Made by a program: the position numbers and the translations under genes. 64,000 nt of DNA from Pseudolactococcus piscium (GTDB lineage Bacteria > Bacillota > Bacilli > Lactobacillales > Streptococcaceae), in the NCBI RefSeq assembly GCF_002441695.1, contig NZ_JXJW01000016.1, positions 1-64,000 of the forward strand. The letters are read 5' to 3'. Position 1 is the stretch's first letter. The number at the start of each line of letters is the position of its first letter. The notes under the pieces were generated by a model that saw only the letters and a list, made by a program, of their open reading frames with translations, did no database searches and was not told the origin of the DNA. Positions 30,700-50,553 of this stretch are shown here, piece by piece.

Positions 30700-30897
30700 A
30701 AAGAAGCACTGGAATGTGCGAACTTACTCACATTTTTGACCGACTAAATCGTATTACCTAGGGAGTCTTTGAGACATCTTACCGCGTGCAAGCCATTTTA
30801 GATGGAAGCTGCTAAGTAAGAGCGAGACGCCCACCTGTTTAACATTTACAGCGGGTTCAATACAAGAGTGAGTAACGGCATTCAATCAGTGCTTTTT
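30700..30897 (+). ncRNA. ssrS: 6S RNA (SsrS-like)
   Basis: About 195 nt following a good promoter, no ORF. The ends pair (AAGCACTG 30704-30711 with CAGTGCTT 30887-30894). A second stem pairs TTACTCAC with GTGAGTAA, and a third TTGACC with GGGTTCAA, giving one long irregular hairpin with internal bubbles. Size and architecture fit 6S RNA, which mimics an open promoter to sequester sigma-70 RNA polymerase. The 3' arm plus T-run doubles as attL of the island. Called from structure and size; an Rfam covariance search (RF00013) would decide. Confidence 0.7.
30875..30897. other. attL of the satellite-like island
   Basis: 23-bp core beginning ACGGCATTCAATCAGTGC, identical to 42582-42604. It forms the 3' stem and T-run of the 6S-like RNA. 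Confidence 0.88.
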
Positions 30898-39957: not shown

Positions 39958-40959
39958 ATGGATAGTAATTTAATAATATACAATGATGATACTGAAAATA
40001 TTCATATTGAAGCTATGTTTGAAGATGAAACGGTTTGGCTTAATCAAAAACAGATTTCAGAATTATTTAATACTTCCCGAGAAAATATTACCGCTCATAT
40101 AAAGAACATTTATTTAGAGGGAGAACTTAACGAGGAGGCAACTAGTAAGAAATTCTTACAAGTTCGAGAAGAGGGTAACCGCGCAGTTAAACGAGAAATT
40201 ACATCATATAATCTTGATCTCATTTTATCAGTTGGTTATCGTGTAAAATCAAAAACAGCTACTCAATTTCGTATTTGGGCTACTGAGCTTATTAAAGAGT
40301 ACCTTAAAAAAGGGTTTGTTATGAACGATGACAGACTTAAAAATTTAGGTGGTGGGAATTATTGGAAAGAACTTCTCACAAGAATACGTGATATCAGATC
40401 AAGTGAAAAAGTGATGTACCGACAAGTGTTAGATTTGTATGCTACCGCTATTGACTACGATCCCAAAGCTGATGCTAGTGTTTTATTCTTTAAAATTGTT
40501 CAAAATAAACTACATTTTGGGGCTCATGGTCATACAGCTTCAGAAGTTATCTATTATCGGGTAGACAGTGACAAACCATTTGCCGGTCTCACAAGTTTTA
40601 AAGGTAAACAACCTACTCAAGCTGAAGCAATGATTGCTAAGAATTATTTAACAGAACAGGAACTTAGGGTATTGAATAATTTGGTTTCTGCTTATTTTGA
40701 TTTGGCTGAGTTGAATGCTATTGAAGAAAAAGAAATGCGAATGACTGATTATTTGACTGAACTTGACAATATCTTAAAGTCAACCGGTCGTAATGTTCTT
40801 GAGGGAGCTGGTAAAGTTACTACAAAATCAGCTCAAGAAAAAGCTAAACTAGAATTGAAAAGATATAAAGCCAAAACACTAGATCCTGTAGAGGAAGATT
40901 ATTTAGAACTTATCAACAGACTTGAAAAACAAGCTAAAAAAGAAAGTCGCAAAAAATAG
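39958..40959 (+). CDS. RhuM-family protein
   Basis: 333 aa. Signature regions TVWLNQKQISELFNTSRENITAHIKNIYLEGEL, GYRVKSKTATQFRIWATELIKEYLKKGFVMNDDRL and GGNYWKELLTRIRDIRSSEKVMYRQVLDLYATAIDYDPK are characteristic of RhuM (COG3943). The N-terminus contains an HTH. RhuM genes are frequent in defence and pathogenicity islands, but the activity is not established. AAAGGAAG ribosome site; intact. Confidence 0.88.
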   Translation: MDSNLIIYNDDTENIHIEAMFEDETVWLNQKQISELFNTSRENITAHIKNIYLEGELNEEATSKKFLQVREEGNRAVKREITSYNLDLILSVGYRVKSKTATQFRIWATELIKEYLKKGFVMNDDRLKNLGGGNYWKELLTRIRDIRSSEKVMYRQVLDLYATAIDYDPKADASVLFFKIVQNKLHFGAHGHTASEVIYYRVDSDKPFAGLTSFKGKQPTQAEAMIAKNYLTEQELRVLNNLVSAYFDLAELNAIEEKEMRMTDYLTELDNILKSTGRNVLEGAGKVTTKSAQEKAKLELKRYKAKTLDPVEEDYLELINRLEKQAKKESRKK

Positions 40960-41054
40960 TTTATCTTTAAGTCAGAATTTACCAACTTTGTTATCGTTTG
41001 TACCATTTTTGATTGACCGCAACTAATTAGCCAAAAAGAAAAAGGAGGGTTGCA

Positions 41055-41170
41055 TATACTGTTACCGTGTTACCCTTGCGTTACTCTACTTTTTTAGAAC
41101 GGTAACACTCTAGACCATTGATATATATAGCTTTATAATACTTTGTTACCTTGTTACCTTAAATAATACT
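41055..41170. repeat. GTTAC-type repeats upstream of the integrase gene
   Basis: Five GTTAC and one GTAAC in about 110 bp surrounding an AT-rich core (ATTGATATATATAGCTTTAT). The same pentamer clusters at 31863-31955, so both ends of the island carry it. Confidence 0.5.
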
Positions 41171-41231
41171 AAGTTAGATATAATTTTACCTATACTTCTG
41201 ACAGATAGACTGATTAACTTCTGTTCGCGTA

Positions 41232-41266
41232 TTCATTTCTCATACCTCAATTACCTTGCCTGGCAA
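41232..41266. repeat. 35-bp repeat with TTGCCTGGCAA palindrome, copy 2
   Basis: Exact copy of 34747-34781, same orientation, 20 bp before the integrase start. On the minus strand it again supplies a ribosome site and ATG, for a 16-codon ORF (MNTRTEVNQSICQKYR). Confidence 0.88.
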
Positions 41267-41285
41267 TAGAACAGGAGCAAAAGAA

Positions 41286-42470
41286 ATGAATATAAAGAAA
41301 GTCACAAAAAAAGACGGCACTATTGTGTACCGTACTAATATATATCTTGGTATTGATAGTTTAACGGGTAAGCAAGCTAGAAAAGTTGTCACTGCTAAAT
41401 CTGAAAAGATGTGTAATATAAAAGCCAACCAAGCGATCAATGATTTTGAAAAACAAGGTAATACTGTTAGAAAAGTTAGCATAGATAACTTTAAAGAGAT
41501 GGCCATGATGTGGTTTGAAAGTTATAAGCTAAGTGTAAAACCTAGAACAGTGCAGATTATGCAAACAAGGCTAAATAATTATGTGTTGCCAGCTTTAGGA
41601 GCTTATAGAATTGACAAAGTAAACTCTATTCTACTTCAGCAAATAGTCAATCAGTGGGCTTTAAACGCTAGTCAGCCTCTAAATGGGGCTTATCATAGGC
41701 CAAGGGGGAAAGGTAAAGACTTTAAAATATACTTTAATATCGTTGAGCGTATATTTAAGCATGCGCTGTCTCTTGGGCTGGTAAAGGACAATCCTTGTCT
41801 TAATGTCATTGTACCAAAAGTACGACTTGAAAGCACTGAGAAGAAGATAAAGCACCTTACTGTGGATCAACTAAAAGTATTCTTTGGTTATGCGGAATCA
41901 TTGCCAAAAGAAAGATATACAACGGAATTGATGTTGGCCCTCAGTAGGTTACTTGTCGCTTCAGGGCTACGTATTGGGGAAGCAGTCTCATTGTCTTGGT
42001 CTGATATTGATCTTGATAATGGCGCAGTTTCTGTTAGTAAGACAACCCATAGGGCCATCATACAGCCAACACCTAAGACTAATAAGAGTAATAGGGTAGT
42101 GTTGATCGATAGCAAAGTATTAGCAGTTTTAAAGCACTGGAGGATATTTCAAGCTAAACACTTTCTTAGTATAGGTAAAGGTAAGCATGAGTTGGTATTC
42201 CCTGGTATAACTGGTAAGGTACTCGACTACCAAATCATACGGCCAGTCTTATTAAAATGGTTTAAAGCCTGTGACTTACCACAAGTTGGCTTTCATGGTT
42301 TTAGGCACTCACACGCTAGCCTACTGCTTAATGCTGGTGTACCTTATAAAGAGATACAAGAACGTTTAGGTCATGCTAGTATAAAGATGACTATGGATAT
42401 ATACAGCCACCTTGAAACTGACAATCAAATAAAGGCAGTAGAACGCTTTGAATCAATCGCAAATTTCTAA
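41286..42470 (+). CDS. int: Tyrosine recombinase (integrase) of the island
   Basis: 394 aa. N-terminal arm-binding domain (KKDGTIVYRTNIYLGIDSLTGK), SAM-like core-binding domain (about 65-160), and catalytic domain with Arg in SGLRIGEAVSL, HGFRHSHAS, LGHASIKMTMDIYSH (R-H-x-x-R-H-Y set). AGGAG precedes ATG 41286. It lies 110 bp from attR, with CGTAATAAAT arm-type repeats in between, so it is the integrase acting on the 23-bp core. Confidence 0.95.
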   Translation: MNIKKVTKKDGTIVYRTNIYLGIDSLTGKQARKVVTAKSEKMCNIKANQAINDFEKQGNTVRKVSIDNFKEMAMMWFESYKLSVKPRTVQIMQTRLNNYVLPALGAYRIDKVNSILLQQIVNQWALNASQPLNGAYHRPRGKGKDFKIYFNIVERIFKHALSLGLVKDNPCLNVIVPKVRLESTEKKIKHLTVDQLKVFFGYAESLPKERYTTELMLALSRLLVASGLRIGEAVSLSWSDIDLDNGAVSVSKTTHRAIIQPTPKTNKSNRVVLIDSKVLAVLKHWRIFQAKHFLSIGKGKHELVFPGITGKVLDYQIIRPVLLKWFKACDLPQVGFHGFRHSHASLLLNAGVPYKEIQERLGHASIKMTMDIYSHLETDNQIKAVERFESIANF

Positions 42471-42484
42471 CAAAAAAACACTAG

Positions 42485-42507
42485 TCGTAATAAATCTCGT
42501 AATAAAT
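42485..42507. repeat. Integrase arm-type sites near attR
   Basis: TCGTAATAAAT (42485-42495) and CTCGTAATAAAT (42496-42507), matching the three copies by attL. Confidence 0.65.
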
Positions 42508-42581
42508 TCAGGATTTCGAAAAATAGAAAACCTGTAGAGGTAGATATACCAACACTCCTAGAGTTTCTACTTAGTACGTAT

Positions 42582-42604
42582 ACGGCATTCAATCAGTGCT
42601 TTTT
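42582..42604. other. attR of the island
   Basis: Second copy of the 23-bp core starting ACGGCATTCAATCAGTGC, followed by T-run and chromosomal sequence. Confidence 0.88.
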
Positions 42605-42667
42605 TTGTTTACAAAAAAATGCTTGCCTTTCATAAATGTTCGGTACTATCTATGGTACAATTACCCT

Positions 42668-43222
42668 ATGAATAAAAGCAGAGTAGAAGCACTTACCGAT
42701 GGGATATTTGCTGTTGTCATGACGCTAACTGTCTTAGAGTTTAAAGTGCCAGAAGATGGCAACTTATTTTCACATCATATGTTGTTATTATTGTTAATCT
42801 ATGTCACAACGTTTGTAGCCCTAGCCTCGATTTGGAATGCGCATCATCAAATTATGAGTTTTCTCAAGCAAACTAAAGTGGATGAGTTAATCCTGTGGGC
42901 CAATCACTTGGTTTTACTAGTTGTCTGTCTGTTTCCTTTTGTTACAGTAGCTCACGCTGAGCATCCTGAATCGACAAGTGCCAGCATCTCCTATGTGGTA
43001 ATTTATCTACTCACTTGGCTAGTGCTGATTTGTTTTAGCGAGTTAATCTATAGAGTATGTAACAAAAGCGAGACACTTCGCCTACGTAATAAGCAAAGAC
43101 TGCGTATCTTCTTTATCTTTCTGCTACCAGGGGCTTTAATTTCCCTATTTTGGTTATATGCCTTGCCGATCGTTACCCTACTGATGGCTATATCTTGGGG
43201 AAGGCACATTGAGTTCGACTAA
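42668..43222 (+). CDS. TMEM175-family potassium channel
   Basis: 184 aa with about six hydrophobic segments and the family signature SRVEALTDGIFAVVMTLTVLEF in the first helix (R..FTDGIFAI-like filter helix). Bacterial TMEM175 proteins form K+-selective tetramers. The ATG at 42668 has no ribosome site; a TACAAT at 42656-42661 would place the transcript start at the ATG, suggesting possible leaderless translation. The longer ORF upstream crosses attR and is not expected. Confidence 0.85.
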   Translation: MNKSRVEALTDGIFAVVMTLTVLEFKVPEDGNLFSHHMLLLLLIYVTTFVALASIWNAHHQIMSFLKQTKVDELILWANHLVLLVVCLFPFVTVAHAEHPESTSASISYVVIYLLTWLVLICFSELIYRVCNKSETLRLRNKQRLRIFFIFLLPGALISLFWLYALPIVTLLMAISWGRHIEFD

Positions 43223-43338
43223 GCTGATATCGTTGCTAAATATGTTTCCCTATTTAGTAAACCTGACTTTATTCTTGCATTTCTGAGCGCATTTGGTTAT
43301 AATAAATTGTTGAGAAAAGCATCTCTCATGATCATATT

Positions 43339-43411
43339 GCCTCCTTAGCTCAGTTGGTAGAGCAGTGGACTCTTAATCCATGGGTCGCAGGTTCAAGCCC
43401 TGCAGGGGGCA
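43339..43411 (+). tRNA. tRNA-Lys (anticodon CTT)
   Basis: Full cloverleaf: acceptor GCCTCCT/AGGGGGC, D-arm GCTCAGTTGGTAGAGC, anticodon stem GTGGA/TCCAT with loop CTCTTAA, T-arm GCAGGTTCAAGCCCTGC. CCA is not encoded. A TATACAG/CTGTATA terminator follows (43418-43453). Confidence 0.97.
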
Positions 43412-44119: not shown

Positions 44120-44797
44120 ATGAAAAAGTTCGTAGCACTTGTTGATGATGAGATTTTGAATGAAATTTGTAAAGTTTTAAGAAATGAAGAGAGGGAGTTT
44201 ATAAGTTTTACATCTTATGATTCTGTTGCTGAAATTGCTAAATTACAAATAGATTTTCCGTGTCAACACTTTATTTTATTACAGGCGGAAAGTATAGCCG
44301 ATTTCCTTGAATTTGAAACAATATTGACGCATAATAGGGGAAATGTAATTGGTATACTGTCTCATAATGTCAAATTGAATGAGCTGATTATAGAAAATGG
44401 AGATCAGTTCTTATTATCTGTAGGGGTAGACAATTTAGCTTCTATTAGAGATGTCATCCAAAGAACAATTAATCTAGTATTTTTTTCAAAATCTTGCTAT
44501 GTTGAGGTATATGGCGTAAGGTTCAATCCAGATGAAGTGCTTTTTATTGAGTCTAGTCGAGAATATCGAAATTGTATCGTGTTATATGAACATGAAGAAA
44601 GATTAATCCGACAACCCTTAAAAAACTTTTCAAAATTAAGACATAATCTGATACGCATCGATAGATCTCTTATTGTCAATATTAATAAAATAAAAAGTAT
44701 TGATATAGGTACGGGAAACATTCAGTTTTATGGGAGCTCGAGAACAACTTATGTTTCTGAAAAGCATATTCACAATTTGGTTACCTTACTTAATTGA
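44120..44797 (+). CDS. LytTR-domain regulator with degenerate receiver
   Basis: 225 aa. The N-terminal half has the fold pattern of a response-regulator receiver (VALVDDEI acid pair) but where the phospho-acceptor Asp is expected the sequence reads HFILLQAES, so phosphorylation is doubtful. C-terminal LytTR DNA-binding domain (VLFIESSREYRNCIVLYE, LIRIDRSLIVNINKIKSID). ComE/BlpR/PlnC-type proteins of this kind control bacteriocin genes. No histidine kinase gene adjoins it. Bacteriocin-transport remnants lie downstream. Confidence 0.8.
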   Translation: MKKFVALVDDEILNEICKVLRNEEREFISFTSYDSVAEIAKLQIDFPCQHFILLQAESIADFLEFETILTHNRGNVIGILSHNVKLNELIIENGDQFLLSVGVDNLASIRDVIQRTINLVFFSKSCYVEVYGVRFNPDEVLFIESSREYRNCIVLYEHEERLIRQPLKNFSKLRHNLIRIDRSLIVNINKIKSIDIGTGNIQFYGSSRTTYVSEKHIHNLVTLLN

Positions 44798-45135
44798 GGT
44801 GGACAACAAACTATAAAAACATCCCAAATTCAGTATATTATCCCAATTACTTTACAAAATATTGTAGTTGGCATTTACGAGTGATAAACTATATCTTGTA
44901 AGCGCTTTATTTTAATACTTTAAATAAAAATGCTTATTTGTATTAGGCTGGTTGACTACAGCATCGTATAAAATTGGAGGAGTTAGTTCCTCATGTAGAT
45001 TCTATGCACACATTACCTGGACTAACTGCAGGATGTGCGGCCAGTTCGCTATTTTAGGGAACAAGCAACTAGCCGTCATATTTAGATGGTATCTTTAGTG
45101 AGCTTCATCACATTATAAATAATAAGGAGTTTAGC
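44798..45135. other. Intergenic region with a possible bacteriocin-precursor relic
   Basis: No intact gene. A short frame around 44973-45057 reads KLEELVPHVDSMHTLPGLTA then GCAASSLF and stop; it has no proper start (an internal ATG at 45003, otherwise TTG). It might be a decayed peptide-precursor gene. Evidence is weak. Confidence 0.25.
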
Positions 45136-45429
45136 ATGCAAAAATACTATGTCAAGAATGTAGGGAACTATGGTTTCACAGGTGCATATAATATTGATAA
45201 GGAGACTCAGAATCTACAGATTGTATATTTAGATGATTTGTATAAAGCGTTGGGAAATAGGGATGGAGAAGATGTAACAATTTACCTCTCAAAATTTATG
45301 GCGCCATACGAAAGAGCTATTAAAGATAAGTATCCGAAGGCAACCATTGAAAATAATGAGAAATTTGATGCGCATACAAAACTTCATGATTGGTTTCCTG
45401 GAGCACAACCACTTAAAGATATTTTATAG
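45136..45429 (+). CDS. Hypothetical 97-aa protein beside the bacteriocin transporter relic
   Basis: Begins MQKYYVKNVGNYGFTGAYN; central VTIYLSKFMAPYERAIKDKYPKA, end WFPGAQPLKDIL. Soluble alpha/beta protein, no membrane helix. AAGGAG precedes the ATG. Directly followed, 11 bp later, by a C39 peptidase relic, so it probably belonged to the same bacteriocin operon; role unknown. Confidence 0.6.
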   Translation: MQKYYVKNVGNYGFTGAYNIDKETQNLQIVYLDDLYKALGNRDGEDVTIYLSKFMAPYERAIKDKYPKATIENNEKFDAHTKLHDWFPGAQPLKDIL

Positions 45430-45440
45430 GATGAAGCAAA

Positions 45441-45788
45441 ATGAAGTATAAGACAATTCCACAGATTGGAAAGGAAGATTGTGGCGCTGCTTGTGTTGCT
45501 AGATTATGGATAATTACTTCTCAAAAAAATCTCTATCTGTGAAATAAGACCGCTTATCAAAAACACGCCTTTGGGAACCTCTTTTTATGATTTAAAAGAG
45601 GTATTTGATGAAATTGCTTATCCTTGTATGACACAACTATAAAATGACTCAGGGCTTTATTTATAGTGATTTTTGAAGATTCTACTGGTACATCATCTTC
45701 AAAAATATCAATAAGAAGATTTATGAAAAAATGGATTGCCTATGTAAATGTAGTAGAATTAGTTAAAGTAAAAGAACCTAAATGCTTT
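45441..45788 (+). pseudogene. Frameshifted C39 peptidase (bacteriocin ABC transporter) relic
   Basis: Starts MKYKTIPQIGKEDCGAACVA, the catalytic-Cys motif of double-glycine-leader peptidases. A frameshift at about 45530 then gives ICEIRPLIKNTPLGTSFYDL and KEVFDEIAYPC, and a third frame gives IFEDSTGTSSSKISIRRFMK. It is cut at 45789 by an IS element; the membrane and ATPase domains are missing. The activity is therefore lost. Confidence 0.8.
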
Positions 45789-45847
45789 TGATGTGCACCC
45801 TAAAATATAAACTTTTGAAATCAAGTATTTACTGCTTGATTTTTTTG

Positions 45848-46235
45848 TTAGTTTGATAATGCCATCCGATATTGGGTTGACGACATCCAGTTTAATTTCT
45901 TCTTAACTCGTTTTGTGTTGTAATAATGAATCCAATCTATTATTGCTCGTTCAAGTGCTTCAAACGATTGAAAGACTCGACCATAATAAACTTCTTGCTT
46001 GAGGAGTCCGAAAAAGTTCTCCATAACTGAATTATCATGACAGTTCCCTTTACGACTCATGGATTGAAAAATACGATGTGCCTTTTTGTTTGAGGAGTTC
46101 TACCATGGGGCGGTAACCTGCATTGGGATGTTCTGCACGTATTTCAAGCATTTTTTTCTCAATTGCGTCATCTTTGTTAGCACGTTTGAAACGTTTGACC
46201 CAATAGTAATAAGTTGCTTTTGGTAGTCCTGTCAT
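45848..46235 (-). pseudogene. IS orfB transposase with catalytic core deleted
   Basis: The N-terminal part is MTGLPKATYYYWVKRFKRAN through NAGYRPMVELLKQKG; it is then joined out of frame near 46058 to MSRKGNCHDNSVMENFFGLL, the C-terminal DDE region with the final Glu. The middle, carrying the two Asp residues of the DDE triad, is absent, so the element cannot transpose by itself. Confidence 0.85.
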
Positions 46236-46237
46236 AC

Positions 46238-46819
46238 TTAAGATTTCTTTGAGTGGGAACTTGAATTCTCCTTGGAGGGCCTGAACAAGCCTGGATTTTC
46301 CCTCGCTTGTCGTTCCATTCGCAGCCTCCTCAGCCCTTTTAAATACTCGTTCTCAATTCTTAGTTTGAGGTTCTCATTTTGAAGCTGAGCGAGTTTTTGT
46401 TCAGTTTCACTCAAATCAGACTGTTTCTTTGAAGACTTTTGTTTTGACATGTCAGGCTCTTTTCTAGGTCTCCCACGAGAATTAGAAAAGGCAAACTCAC
46501 CCTTCTCACAGTAATCAAGCACCCAACGCGCGAGTAAGGCATTATTAGTCATGCCTAATTGATCACCTATTTCTCGATAAGATTTTTCACTTGTTAAGTA
46601 TAAGTTTACAGCATTGAGCTTAAATTGTGTATCATAAACTGTGTTTTTCCGTTTACGCTGAAGACCTGTACTTCCAAAAGCTCGGTATATATGTACCCAG
46701 TCCTTGATTCGACCTGACGTCTTAACATGGTATTTATCAGCTATAAATTGATAGCTACCTAATCCTTGTTCATAGTCTATAACTGCTTTTAGTTTCAAAT
46801 CAAATGAATATTTAGCCAT
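46238..46819 (-). CDS. IS orfA (DNA-binding transposase subunit)
   Basis: 193 aa with two HTH_28-like repeats (FDLKLKAVIDYEQGLGSYQFIADKYHV; TQFKLNAVNLYLTSEKSYREIGDQLGM) and a C-terminal leucine-zipper coiled coil (LSETEQKLAQLQNENLKLRIENEYLKGLRRL), typical of IS150-group OrfA. Intact, but without a functional orfB. Confidence 0.88.
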   Translation of the reverse strand: MAKYSFDLKLKAVIDYEQGLGSYQFIADKYHVKTSGRIKDWVHIYRAFGSTGLQRKRKNTVYDTQFKLNAVNLYLTSEKSYREIGDQLGMTNNALLARWVLDYCEKGEFAFSNSRGRPRKEPDMSKQKSSKKQSDLSETEQKLAQLQNENLKLRIENEYLKGLRRLRMERQARENPGLFRPSKENSSSHSKKS

Positions 46820-47062: not shown

Positions 47063-48028
47063 TTATAATTTGCAATCAAAACGAATTTCATTTGTTTCAA
47101 AATTGCCATATGCTAAAACAGTCTCTTTTTCTAACATATAATCAAGCACCAGTTTTGAAACCATATATGTACCTAGAAATGCATTTAGGACTGAACCACT
47201 ATTTGCTATAATCCCATCTTTTTTACTGATAATCAGCGATTTAATTTTATCAATAAATTTTATCGCTGTCTGTTGATTTTTAATTAAATAGGCTGTTTGA
47301 GCTAAAACACCATAACCGCATACGAGAATAGGACCATTAATTTTATTATCAACTTTGGCTTGCGTTAAACTTAACATTAATTCATGATCATCAGAAGCAT
47401 TTATTATAATATCTTTATCCGTAAGTCCGCCAACTAATCTATTTAGTTCTTCGTAGTTAGCTATAAATTTTCTATGTGGTGTGATCTGATGTTTTTCGCC
47501 ATACCTATCATTTAATGTTTCAACTTTATATTTTCCTATTTCATTTACTAAATAATTTTGTGCCTCTAAATTTTTTTCTTCGATAGAGTCTCCGTCAATT
47601 AAAACAAAATGATTGAACTTCAACTTACTCAGAGCTTCAACTAAATAACTACCAGCTGTACCTAAACCGATGATAATAATTCTTTGATTTGAAACTTTTA
47701 TCTCATAGTTTTGATAGAACGTTTGAGGAAAAGTATTAATAAACATTTCAGTTCTTGTTAGTGGCTTCAATGTGTCAGATATCCAGTAACCATAACCTTT
47801 TTTTTCTAAAAATAAAAGAATATCATCTTTTTGTATTTGTGATATTGACGTGTAATTATTGATTTCTTCTCTAGATTTTGCGGTACTAATAAACTGTAAA
47901 AATGAAAAAAAAGCATCATTATCATCAGTATTAATTAACATATTTAAACGATTATTACCATGATATATCTCTATTCCTGTTTCTTTTTTCATCCAAATTA
48001 ATTCTGACTTTAGTCTAAATTGCTTCAT
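47063..48028 (-). CDS. ThiF/MccB-like adenylating enzyme (peptide-modifying E1-type)
   Basis: 321 aa. Residues about 1-100 form a compact domain without ATP motifs, resembling the N-terminal peptide clamp of MccB. Residues 110-300 form the E1/ThiF fold: IIIIGLGTAGSYLVEAL (nucleotide loop), FVLIDGDSIEEKNLEAQNYL (D-x-D and N..Q, with the usual Arg replaced), GKYKVETL (Lys), and DIIINASDDHELM (catalytic Asp region). MccB activates the C-terminus of a short peptide with ATP to make microcin C precursors. The start overlaps the MFS gene by 14 bp. No CxxC zinc site is visible. Substrate and product unknown. Confidence 0.8.
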   Translation of the reverse strand: MKQFRLKSELIWMKKETGIEIYHGNNRLNMLINTDDNDAFFSFLQFISTAKSREEINNYTSISQIQKDDILLFLEKKGYGYWISDTLKPLTRTEMFINTFPQTFYQNYEIKVSNQRIIIIGLGTAGSYLVEALSKLKFNHFVLIDGDSIEEKNLEAQNYLVNEIGKYKVETLNDRYGEKHQITPHRKFIANYEELNRLVGGLTDKDIIINASDDHELMLSLTQAKVDNKINGPILVCGYGVLAQTAYLIKNQQTAIKFIDKIKSLIISKKDGIIANSGSVLNAFLGTYMVSKLVLDYMLEKETVLAYGNFETNEIRFDCKL

Positions 48029-49271
48029 TTTTTTGCTTCCTTCTATGAGTTGTTAATATCAAGATAAGTGCCACTAGAGATAATACTGAGAAGATGAACC
48101 ATGAAATGTTTACATGCCACAAAGTAAGACTCGTAAATATAACTGTACCAACTGGAATTGATAGCATAAACAAGGTATCAAGAAAGGCACCTGTTTGTGC
48201 TAATACCTCAGGCGATAGGGCGTTCAATAATTGCGATGACAATTTAGGATTAATTTTACCTATCACATACCCGATAAAAGCGATAAATATTGTACTCATT
48301 AAAGGTGGAAACTGTGATATGTTTAAAACTGAAAGGCCTAATAAACTAGCTGATACGAATGAAATTAAGGTGGTGAGTGAGAGTTTTGAAAAAACATCAT
48401 GTGGCAATAGACTACTGACAATCACACCTAGAATATAAGCGCTTTGCATGATTAAGATAGACGTCCCAAATGGAAGATTTAAAATTGTCTTATCCAGTAA
48501 AACGATATTGAAAATTGGTAAAATCGCACTCCCTAGTACATTAACTAAAATAATACAGCTTAACATCCTAGTAAAACCAGATGCCCCTTCTTTACCAAAT
48601 ATTTGTTTGGCATTTGATAAAATTGATTTCAATCTTGCAGTTAGTGTATTTTTACTATCCTTACTATCAGAAGAGATGAAATCAAAAGACATCTCCTTTC
48701 TGATGATCATCAGTGAAAAAATTGACAATAAAAAAGTTACCGCATTTACAATAGCAACAAACGAAAAATTTTGATAACTCACACTCAATAGCCAGACACC
48801 AAAGATTTGACCTAGTAAAGAACTGATGTAAGTCACAAATTGTTTGAACGAGAATGCAGCCATCATAGTATTTTTTGGAATATTTTTTTGTAAAATGGGC
48901 ATTTTTAAACCACGCTCAAAATTACTAAATGTATCAGATATAATGTTTATAAAGCATACTGCAGAAAAAGCAAGATAGGACATGTTTCTCTGTAGTAATG
49001 CGACTATAATAAATAAAAATGCCTGAAAAAATCCAATGTTAATTGCCCACTTCACCTTACGCTCAGTCTTATCAGCCCGTATACCCACAGAAATTTGAAA
49101 AAATATAGGGATGAGCATGATAGCATTTGCAATGAATACCATGATTTTTGGATTAGGCATCGTTGAAGCAAAAATAATGAAAACTAGATTATAGATAGAT
49201 GCGCCCGAGTTGTTTAAAAAATCAGAAATGATTATCCATCTAAACACTTTATTTTTTAAAAAAAGGTTCAT
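48015..49271 (-). CDS. MFS exporter (MccC-like position)
   Basis: 418 aa with about 12 membrane helices, major-facilitator family (RADKTERKVKWAIN loop between helices 2-3; helices rich in Ile/Leu/Phe). In microcin C clusters MccC is an MFS exporter of the modified peptide and gives immunity; the same pairing with a ThiF enzyme is seen here. GGAG lies 7 nt before the ATG at 49271. Preceded by two tiny ORFs. Export of the peptide product is inference from context. Confidence 0.82.
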   Translation of the reverse strand: MNLFLKNKVFRWIIISDFLNNSGASIYNLVFIIFASTMPNPKIMVFIANAIMLIPIFFQISVGIRADKTERKVKWAINIGFFQAFLFIIVALLQRNMSYLAFSAVCFINIISDTFSNFERGLKMPILQKNIPKNTMMAAFSFKQFVTYISSLLGQIFGVWLLSVSYQNFSFVAIVNAVTFLLSIFSLMIIRKEMSFDFISSDSKDSKNTLTARLKSILSNAKQIFGKEGASGFTRMLSCIILVNVLGSAILPIFNIVLLDKTILNLPFGTSILIMQSAYILGVIVSSLLPHDVFSKLSLTTLISFVSASLLGLSVLNISQFPPLMSTIFIAFIGYVIGKINPKLSSQLLNALSPEVLAQTGAFLDTLFMLSIPVGTVIFTSLTLWHVNISWFIFSVLSLVALILILTTHRRKQKNEAI

Positions 49272-49283
49272 AAAATCTCCAGA

Positions 49284-49325
49284 TTAATTTAAAAAAACGA
49301 TAAATATAAATTGCTTCATATTCAT
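49284..49325 (-). CDS. Possible 13-aa peptide MNMKQFIFIVFLN (C-terminal Asn)
   Basis: Lies between the 20-aa ORF and the MFS gene. It ends in Asn, the residue that known MccB enzymes require at the peptide C-terminus. No good ribosome site, so it may not be translated; translation could be coupled to the preceding ORF, which ends 13 bp upstream. Listed as an alternative precursor. Confidence 0.25.
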   Translation of the reverse strand: MNMKQFIFIVFLN

Positions 49326-49338
49326 CGCCGTTTAAGTT

Positions 49339-49401
49339 TTATGAAATGATGCAAATCGTGATATCATTGCTATCCAATACATGTTTTTCTTCAAAAGTCA
49401 T
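49339..49401 (-). CDS. Candidate precursor or signal peptide MTFEEKHVLDSNDITICIIS
   Basis: 20 aa. A strong AAGGAGG lies 8 nt before the ATG, and the ORF heads the MFS-ThiF operon. An acidic, helical N-half (leader-like) is followed by the hydrophobic end DITICIIS. Two readings: a RiPP precursor whose C-terminal part is modified by the ThiF enzyme and exported by the MFS protein; or a pheromone precursor, since DITICIIS resembles the short hydrophobic Rgg-binding peptides such as SHP DILIIVGG. It does not end in Asn, unlike typical MccA. Confidence 0.6.
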   Translation of the reverse strand: MTFEEKHVLDSNDITICIIS

Positions 49402-49515
49402 ATTTGTTTCCTCCTTTTTAACAAAACCTTAGCTGTCAGTCTTGTTCAGTTCTCATAAATCGTTTAAACTAACTTACAAAACAATACTATCACTTCTAAC
49501 ACCTCCGTGCGTAAT

Positions 49516-49564
49516 GTTGCTAGCTTGCAACGGTTTGTTGCAAAAAGTGTTGCAAGTTAGCAAC
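49516..49564. promoter_or_regulatory. Operator-like 16-bp inverted repeat between divergent genes
   Basis: GTTGCTAGCTTGCAAC (49516-49531) and GTTGCAAGTTAGCAAC (49549-49564) are inverted copies with one mismatch, 17 bp apart, in the divergent promoter region of the ThiF operon and the 11-aa peptide gene. Plausible Rgg-type binding site. Confidence 0.65.
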
Positions 49565-49585
49565 ATTACATTTTTCTTTTTTTAA

Positions 49586-49608
49586 TTTGATAAGATATCG
49601 TTATCAAA
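49586..49608. promoter_or_regulatory. TTTGATAA/TTATCAAA inverted repeat
   Basis: Perfect 8-bp arms with a 7-nt centre, just before the ribosome site of the 11-aa peptide gene. Confidence 0.55.
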
Positions 49609-49624
49609 TAAGGAAGTAGTGCAT

Positions 49625-49660
49625 ATGTTCAGCTTTCTTCGCGGACTTTTAGGCGACTAG
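49625..49660 (+). CDS. Candidate 11-aa signal peptide MFSFLRGLLGD
   Basis: AAGGAAG ribosome site 8 nt before the ATG at 49625. The peptide is short and hydrophobic with one Arg and a C-terminal Asp. It is transcribed toward the Rgg gene, with a shared terminator between them, and away from the ThiF operon. Convergent short-peptide genes next to Rgg regulators encode pheromones in streptococci, usually longer (about 20 aa). Could also be a directly acting peptide. Confidence 0.55.
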   Translation: MFSFLRGLLGD

Positions 49661-49674
49661 GGAATTTAATAAGA

Positions 49675-49718
49675 AGATTGGAACAAAGGTTTTATTTATG
49701 TTCCAATCTCCTTTTATT
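49675..49718. terminator. Bidirectional terminator between the 11-aa peptide and rgg
   Basis: Perfect 11-bp stem AGATTGGAACA/TGTTCCAATCT followed by TCCTTTTATTT. Confidence 0.88.
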
Positions 49719-50553
49719 TGTAGTTAAACAAGAAAATTTCAATTCTTTCCGCCAATCCTTGTGCTCCTAAATCTTTTAAAGCATGAATATCTCTACTAAT
49801 TCCTGATAAAAGTTCTGGTTTTTTTCTTTCCGGGATATTAATATTTTTTTAAAAATCTGAATAGTTATTTTTTCATCTGTATCAGTCGGTTTTAGTAAAG
49901 TATTAAGTTGCTTTTCAAATTCCTCAGCATACACGAAACAACCACGAAATATCATGTAGACATAGACAAGTGTTCTTTTTACAATTTGTGCATTGTAAAG
50001 TAAAGGTCTATAAAATGCGTTTTTTTCAATTAATTGTAAACCCAACTGATAAACCAAGTCTGTATCTAAAGCTTCTAAACACATGCTGAAAAAAGTTGTG
50101 TCAAACATCGACCACTCTTCACAATCTGTCAGATATTTATCAATAAATTGAGTCTCCTCACCGTCAGTAAGTTTTGCCCGGATAACTCATGAATAGCGCA
50201 CTTGACCTTGATATTAAAAATCTTTTTTTCATTTGTTCGTGGTTTTCTGATAATCAGCGCTTCAAGCCCATCTATATCTTGTGCATTGATTAAATCTTGT
50301 ATTTTCTCGCCAAATATTTGCAGATTACCTACTTCAAAATTGCCAATCGTTAGAAAAAATTCACTAACGGTCATATTTAAGCCGTTAATTGCATGCATGA
50401 AACCATCTAATAATAACATTTGTGTTCCATTTTCAAATCTTGATACTTGCGATTTATTCAAATTATCACCTGTGACATCTCCCATGGAGTAGCCCCTAGC
50501 TTCCCTCACTTTCGATAGTGAGCGCCTAAATCTCTAAAATTCAACATATACAT
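49714..50553 (-). pseudogene. Rgg/GadR/MutR-family regulator with three frameshifts
   Basis: The pieces together match a full Rgg protein (about 280 aa): HTH (GAHYRKVREARGYSMGDV, NKSQVSRFENGTQ) and a TPR-like peptide-binding domain ending DLGAQGLAERIEIFLFNYK. Breaks: near 50510 (CGAAAGTG, frame change before VREARG), near 50170 (GGCAAAACTT), and near 49815 (poly-T). Each lies at a short homopolymer, so sequencing error is possible, but three together favour decay. Rgg proteins bind pheromones and control bacteriocin operons. Confidence 0.75.

Follow-up and report, generated by a model that had tools for sequence, protein, structure and literature searches.

A probable ThiF-modified peptide cluster from a branch of adenylyltransferases lacking the Arg of the N-x-x-R-Q motif

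The cluster described here is best explained as a small RiPP cluster built around a ThiF-like adenylyltransferase (TLAT), and we consider this explanation, with its ring-forming, export and Rgg steps, reasonably probable. On the minus strand of the window (the whole 64,000-nucleotide stretch of Pseudolactococcus piscium DNA that was analysed), an rgg remnant is followed by a 20-codon ORF, an MFS-type exporter gene and a ThiF-family enzyme gene, and an 11-codon ORF lies on the plus strand between rgg and this operon, divergent from the latter (Table 1). The RiPP-cluster elements seen are a conserved short ORF, a partner enzyme with RRE-like and E1 domains, and an exporter gene between them. The preliminary description had placed a short ORF with a strong ribosome site at the head of an operon with an MFS exporter and a ThiF/MccB-like enzyme, and this arrangement is confirmed. 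Its view of the short ORF as the precursor of a ThiF-modified peptide is supported by the full-length MccB/PaaA fold of the enzyme and by the conservation of the ORF in related clusters.

Broken transposase ORFs (45848-46819) adjoin the ThiF gene at its 3′ end. The location differs in L. laudensis and L. raffinolactis, where the cluster precedes a tyrosyl-tRNA synthetase-like gene. An intact copy of the cluster, 97% identical, occupies L030:1-4793, a goat MAG contig titled 'Clostridia bacterium' that is probably mis-binned.

Table 1. Positions of the cluster features in the window.
Feature	Position	Strand	Details
RRE-ThiF adenylyltransferase	47063..48028	-	321 aa; motif NLEAQ; PF00899, E 6.8e-15
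MFS-type exporter	48015..49271	-	418 aa; related to MFS proteins in L100 and L096
Precursor peptide MTFEEKHVLDSNDITICIIS	49339..49401	-	20 codons; AGGAGG ribosome site at the usual distance
Probable -10 element of the operon	49484..49489	-	TAGTAT here, TATAAT or TATGAT in relatives; inferred from alignment
Operator, two 16-nt palindromes GTTGCWARYTWGCAAC	49511..49569		Copies at 49516-49531 and 49549-49564, between the divergent genes
Candidate leaderless pheromone MFSFLRGLLGD	49625..49660	+	11 codons, divergent from the operon
Bidirectional terminator	49671..49713		Strong; between pheromone ORF and rgg; 15-nt arms, 93% complementary; fold z -4.5
rgg remnant	49714..50547	-	Three single-base deletions vs relatives, near 50509, 50162-50180 and 49824

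Fold and motif of the ThiF enzyme

The AlphaFold2 model of the enzyme, made with an alignment of 16 clade sequences, has a pLDDT of 93.9 and superseded a first model from 6 sequences (pLDDT 72). It aligns with MccB across residues 2-321 (Z 24.8, rmsd 3.8, 304 of 321 residues, 15% identity) and with PaaA over 292 residues (Z 21.9), whereas MoeB and ThiF align only from about residue 87, the E1 half. Since MccB and PaaA match the whole length and ThiF and MoeB do not, the enzyme is an RRE-E1 protein of the RiPP sort; the housekeeping MoeB/ThiF assignment, named earlier as the outcome that would speak against a peptide-modifying role, is excluded. The domain pair expected of a TLAT, an RRE or peptide clamp at the N-terminus followed by E1 adenylation, is present in the predicted model. 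The best sequence-profile match in the PDB is 9egb/9egc (AclA), for which we found no describing publication.

The enzyme carries NLEAQ where N-x-x-R-Q is usual. This loss of Arg, pointed out in the preliminary description, is real and clade-wide: in a table of 69 ThiFs, where the clade was taken as the 19 ThiFs that best match its profile, Ala or Ser stands at the Arg position in 19/19 members, and Arg in 49 of the 50 other ThiFs, the last of which, sister G785, has His. Support for the group of 19 is weak (0.36), and that for the 19 with G785 is 0.935. The ATP-binding residues (G-x-G-T-x-G, D145, D147, N153, Q157, K168 and D213) are invariant in the clade, and the K168-D213 spacing of 45 equals that of Lys180 and Asp225 in EnfB (PMC12250964). 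The clade has GxGT and is devoid of CxxC pairs. The Arg missing here occurs in MccB, EnfB and IndF, and is not clearly needed for TLAT membership. Arg167 of EnfB is reported to be essential for ATP binding (PMC12250964), and adenylation could be altered or lost where the Arg is missing.

Each of the eight longer proteins (about 590-777 aa) among the clade and sister members has an HExxH domain at its end; this domain is likely a leader protease, and Pfam and NCBIfam gave it no name when it was searched as cut. The Lactococcus ThiFs have no such domain. ThiFs of about 760-777 aa with the HExxH domain lie at L100:4336-6669, L101:4800-7088 and L103:4496-6823, and the precursors ahead of them end in GGCFIAC, CYCVILC and CYCFQKC. 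The window exporter itself has no Pfam match. It is 40% identical to the MFS protein beside the L100 ThiF and related (E 1e-16) to the L096 MFS protein, which itself matches MFS_1. Relatives of the ThiF enzyme were not found in viral contigs, and a search of plasmids returned distant relatives only.

Precursor families and the predicted ring

The precursor consists of a putative leader, MTFEEKHVLDSN-, and the core end ICIIS, which places Cys17 at position -4. Homologues were found in L022, L023, L030, L024-L026 and L095; the precursor is MKFEEKHILDSNDILICIFG in L. laudensis (L022/L031), MKFEEKHVLDSNGDIMISIIA in L. raffinolactis (L023/L032) and MTFEEKHILDSNDITICIIA in the near-identical contig L030. 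Between the window and L. laudensis (G041), there are 7.3 changes over 10 synonymous sites and 7.7 over 50 nonsynonymous sites. These counts indicate that the short ORF is preserved as a protein. The 20-codon ORF is, as judged from these sequences, a real, conserved gene. The conservation on which the earlier proposal had been made to depend was found: the C-terminus is kept in L. laudensis, L. raffinolactis, four streptococci and farther Lactobacillales, always near the same enzyme. In the four streptococci, the precursors ahead of the ThiF relative read MDIKETKLVVTVCGFIHINICVINK (S. sciuri), MEIHETDVVISEVEINICVVNK, MEFRESKFNVARSEKEINICIVCK and MKIYESAVIRTGRTSSKDINICVISK, which share INIC[VI][VI]xK, and an ABC transporter follows the enzyme. 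The ThiF relative is 37-40% identical in the first three of them and 35% identical in the fourth. At L049:6283-6456, upstream of a ThiF with a fused HExxH domain, lies a precursor in which the core is repeated four times, (NDVNISGIYK)x3 + NDVNISGIIK (consensus NDVNISGI[YI]K). The other far members end in ISNIWK, KNCLFL, WWSIFG, CFIAC and CYCVILC.

The candidate precursors (n = 16) are 20-57 residues long and terminate in Ser, Ala, Gly, Lys, Leu, Ile or Cys. Nine of the 10 divergent lineages have Cys or Ser at -4/-5, against a mean of 3.5 when the last ten residues were shuffled (P 0.0004); this count used one representative per lineage, candidates picked by place and ribosome site, and lineages that are not fully independent. 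The exception is a Lactiplantibacillus ORF ending ..FSIWILI, the only candidate with Trp at -4, which may be an IndF-kind precursor or a pheromone. The L099 candidate ..NKCECCT resembles a truncated unrelated protein and was excluded from the count. In the L096 locus, a search by ribosome site found no precursor.

Published TLATs all adenylate a carboxylate, and the nucleophile varies (PMC12150305, PMC12250964). We favour, at slightly better than even chances, the formation of a small thiolactone by attack of the Cys thiol on a C-terminal carboxylate that the enzyme has adenylated. From established E1/TLAT chemistry, the RRE would hold the acidic leader, and the precursor C-terminus would enter the active site, where ATP would convert its carboxylate to an acyl-adenylate. 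Comparison of the precursors suggests that the side chain of Cys, or of Ser in some relatives, at -4/-5 would then attack the adenylate, AMP would leave, and a thiolactone (lactone) ring of 4 or 5 residues would close, here Cys17-Ile-Ile-Ser20 with a loss of 18 Da. The MFS protein would export the product, which would serve as a competition or signalling peptide. The leader would probably be removed by the fused HExxH domain in half of the clade, and by a host protease in the window's strain.

A side-chain-to-C-terminus thiolactone, or a lactone where Ser is present, is the simplest inference because of the -4/-5 Cys/Ser excess and because IndF of Streptococcus pneumoniae forms its bond between the Trp at -4 and the C-terminal Ile (PMC12150305). 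The IndF system is alike in its RRE-ThiF, precursor and transporter, but IndA ends in NWYFI with Trp as nucleophile where Cys stands here, and that system has an M16 protease and IndF homologues with NINRQ and two CxxC; both motifs are found in the homologue identified by its NWYFI precursor. GrcB of S. pneumoniae, also ThiF-like and set in a quorum-sensing neighbourhood, makes a thiolactone (PMC12250964) in the opposite direction, from an inner Glu to the C-terminal Cys, and has radical SAM partners. Against the ring, its size would need to vary between 4 and 5. A nearby side chain is also no proof of a ring, since EnfB uses a backbone nitrogen to form an imide. In the same kind of TLAT RiPP, the activated C-terminus might react instead with a backbone nitrogen, giving an imide, or with an amine or sulfide donor, giving a C-terminal amide or a thiocarboxylate, and Cys/Ser would then be kept for recognition only. 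The product of EnfB, made at the cost of one ATP, is an imide or an amide (PMC12250964); the enterofaecin system EnfB/EnfA shares the RRE-ThiF and a precursor of about 20 residues, whose hydrophobic WIVI end the C-termini here resemble, and the absence of the Arg and of the CxxC zinc pairs means that the active site differs. EnfA ends in WWIVI and is modified to a backbone imide by an enzyme with Arg167. Against such a capture, Cys/Ser is the only polar residue at a fixed distance from the end of the divergent precursors, and the exchange of Cys for Ser is what a nucleophile would lead one to expect. We regard such a capture as rather unlikely.

A microcin C-like product, with AMP attached to the C-terminus through an N-P bond, is very improbable. 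The nearest full-length fold is that of MccB from the microcin C7 system of E. coli, with RRE and E1 over the whole chain, and the same kinds of part (precursor, MFS protein, ThiF) are combined in one cluster. MccA, however, has 7 residues and ends in Asn, and MccB has NxxRQ, the Arg of which is lost here. As the preliminary description had remarked of the short ORF, terminal Asn is absent, and this holds for 16/16 candidate precursors, all of them of 20 residues or more. Since the precursor has no terminal Asn, the cluster is not a microcin C system, and the close parallel drawn earlier, already strained by a precursor of 20 residues instead of 7, is not supported. Another reading makes the 20-residue peptide itself the Rgg pheromone, a signal that ThiF merely modifies. 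Its hydrophobic, Asp-led end DITICIIS recalls SHPs such as DIIIIVGG, an rgg remnant is nearby, and a kinase or Rgg adjoins in some loci. We judge this reading improbable: its acidic N-terminus is unlike SHP leaders, a second short ORF occupies the pheromone place in the window, L100 has an SHP ORF separate from its precursor, and four streptococci keep precursor, ThiF and transporter with no adjacent rgg.

Regulation and decay of the cluster

The rgg gene adjoins the clade ThiF in L022, L023, L030, L027, L048, L049, L096, L100 and L101, and was not found beside ThiF in the four streptococcal loci. Rgg is intact in L022, L023 and L030, and that of L. laudensis is related to the solved Rgg2 and RopB structures. 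On the evidence of its reading frame, the window rgg is a pseudogene, three sequencing errors being a less likely explanation; the working Rgg regulator earlier assigned to the cluster is accordingly not confirmed. The divergent 11-codon ORF was correctly recognised. It has 14 codons in relatives, and TAG for TGG stops it three codons early in the window. Its counterparts are L(M)FSFLRGLLGDWGI (L030), MIFKLFNLFGILDF (L022) and MIFKLLNLFGILDF (L023), and the Lactococcus ORF at this place, which reads LFSFLRGLLGDWGI, MIFKLFNLFGILDF or MIFKLLNLFGILDF, resembles a leaderless pheromone. This candidate pheromone ORF is kept in four Lactococcus loci, frameshifted in G035 and shortened in the window. 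The layout of L100 is like that of the cluster here: the SHP-like ORF (MKKVIALFLSIQAVAVIDIIIFPPFG) overlaps the rgg end and diverges from the ThiF operon, and the precursor of that locus is a separate ORF. The large inverted-repeat operator of the preliminary description stands as a repeat, in the form of two copies of a 16-nt palindrome rather than one large inverted repeat; the copies are 33 bp apart (2 found vs 0.03 expected) and largely retained in five Lactococcus loci.

In the intact relatives, Rgg bound to the pheromone peptide probably acts at the paired palindromes to switch on the two divergent promoters. Rgg/SHP and LCP quorum sensing (PMC12445099, PMC13361665, PMC10518010) likewise combines Rgg, a short hydrophobic peptide ORF and an adjacent RiPP operon, and of 21 rgg regions in S. 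thermophilus, 11 contain a gene for ThiF or radical SAM (PMC12445099). LCPs, however, mostly have 8-10 codons against 11-14 for the peptide ORF here, and the window Rgg is broken. We found no description of the Arg-less ThiF clade in these papers (PMC12445099, PMC13361665, PMC10518010). Pheromone-type control, as proposed earlier, is plausible for the family, in which rgg stands beside many members; in the window's strain the Rgg switch is probably broken. The case for the pheromone circuit is weakened by the broken window rgg and by the streptococcal members without an adjacent rgg.

Since the window rgg is broken and other breaks occur in G035 and G009, decay of the Lactococcus cluster is under way in several strains. 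An IS30 element interrupts rgg in G035, where the precursor start codon is also lost, and ThiF is frameshifted in L. raffinolactis; the cluster is intact in L. laudensis and L030. In the window's strain it may be a dead remnant that makes nothing, a doubtful but real prospect that does not conflict with the reading preferred for the family. The rgg deletions, the shortened pheromone ORF, the -10 element unlike that of relatives, and the insertion, lost start codon or ThiF frameshift in near relatives fit such a remnant, whereas the intact precursor, MFS and ThiF genes of the window, and ThiF and MFS changes vs G035 that are mostly synonymous, argue against it.

Elsewhere in the window, positions 44120-45800 hold a LytTR regulator gene without a kinase, a 97-aa ORF of no known family that is conserved in G035, and a broken ORF, starting from 45441 (QIGKEDCGAACVA), that resembles a C39 bacteriocin-exporter peptidase; together they may be another peptide locus that has decayed. 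A RhuM-family gene, a tyrosine integrase (41256-42470), a TMEM175-like channel and a tRNA gene (43339-43411) at 39958-43411 are likely the edge of an integrated element. A 6S RNA gene (Rfam RF00013) lies at 30703-30896.

Place among ThiF-modified peptides

ThiF RiPPs are already a recognised class (PMC12250964, PMC12150305), and ThiF beside rgg has also been published (PMC12445099), so that the word 'undescribed', used in the preliminary description for the whole system, holds for the Arg-less clade only. Within the literature consulted, this clade and its families of precursors appear to be new, as does the predicted Cys/Ser ring, and a survey of lactic acid bacterial ThiF RiPPs may overlap with them. 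The predicted ring-tailed peptide seems to be a variant, apparently undescribed, of a recently recognised natural-product class.

At L099:3756-5838, a clade ThiF has as direct neighbours a kinase of the AgrC type (HATPase_c_5) and a LytTR response regulator, and the product of this ThiF may be their signal. AgrB was not found in the L099 genome, and the AgrB processing protease gave no match above the cut-off in 19 genomes, a search in which the control set gave no strong positive. A tentative wider proposal, which we hold less likely than the thiolactone itself, is that the Arg-less E1-like clade makes small cyclic (thio)lactones with AIP geometry, a ring of 4-5 residues on the C-terminus; this would be an AgrB-independent route to AIP-like peptides in Lactobacillales, and the kinase and LytTR regulator of L099 (G704) would sense the product.

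The analysis sets apart a testable branch of ThiF RiPP enzymes, marked by one motif change, NxxRQ to NxxAQ, and catalogues precursor families for at least 14 loci. Food lactococci are among the hosts, and culture and genetics are therefore easy. The predicted product is simple, with one water lost and one thiol masked. If the reading is right, it raises the puzzle of an E1 enzyme that adenylates without the usual Arg, and the family would possess a one-enzyme way to AIP-like thiolactones.
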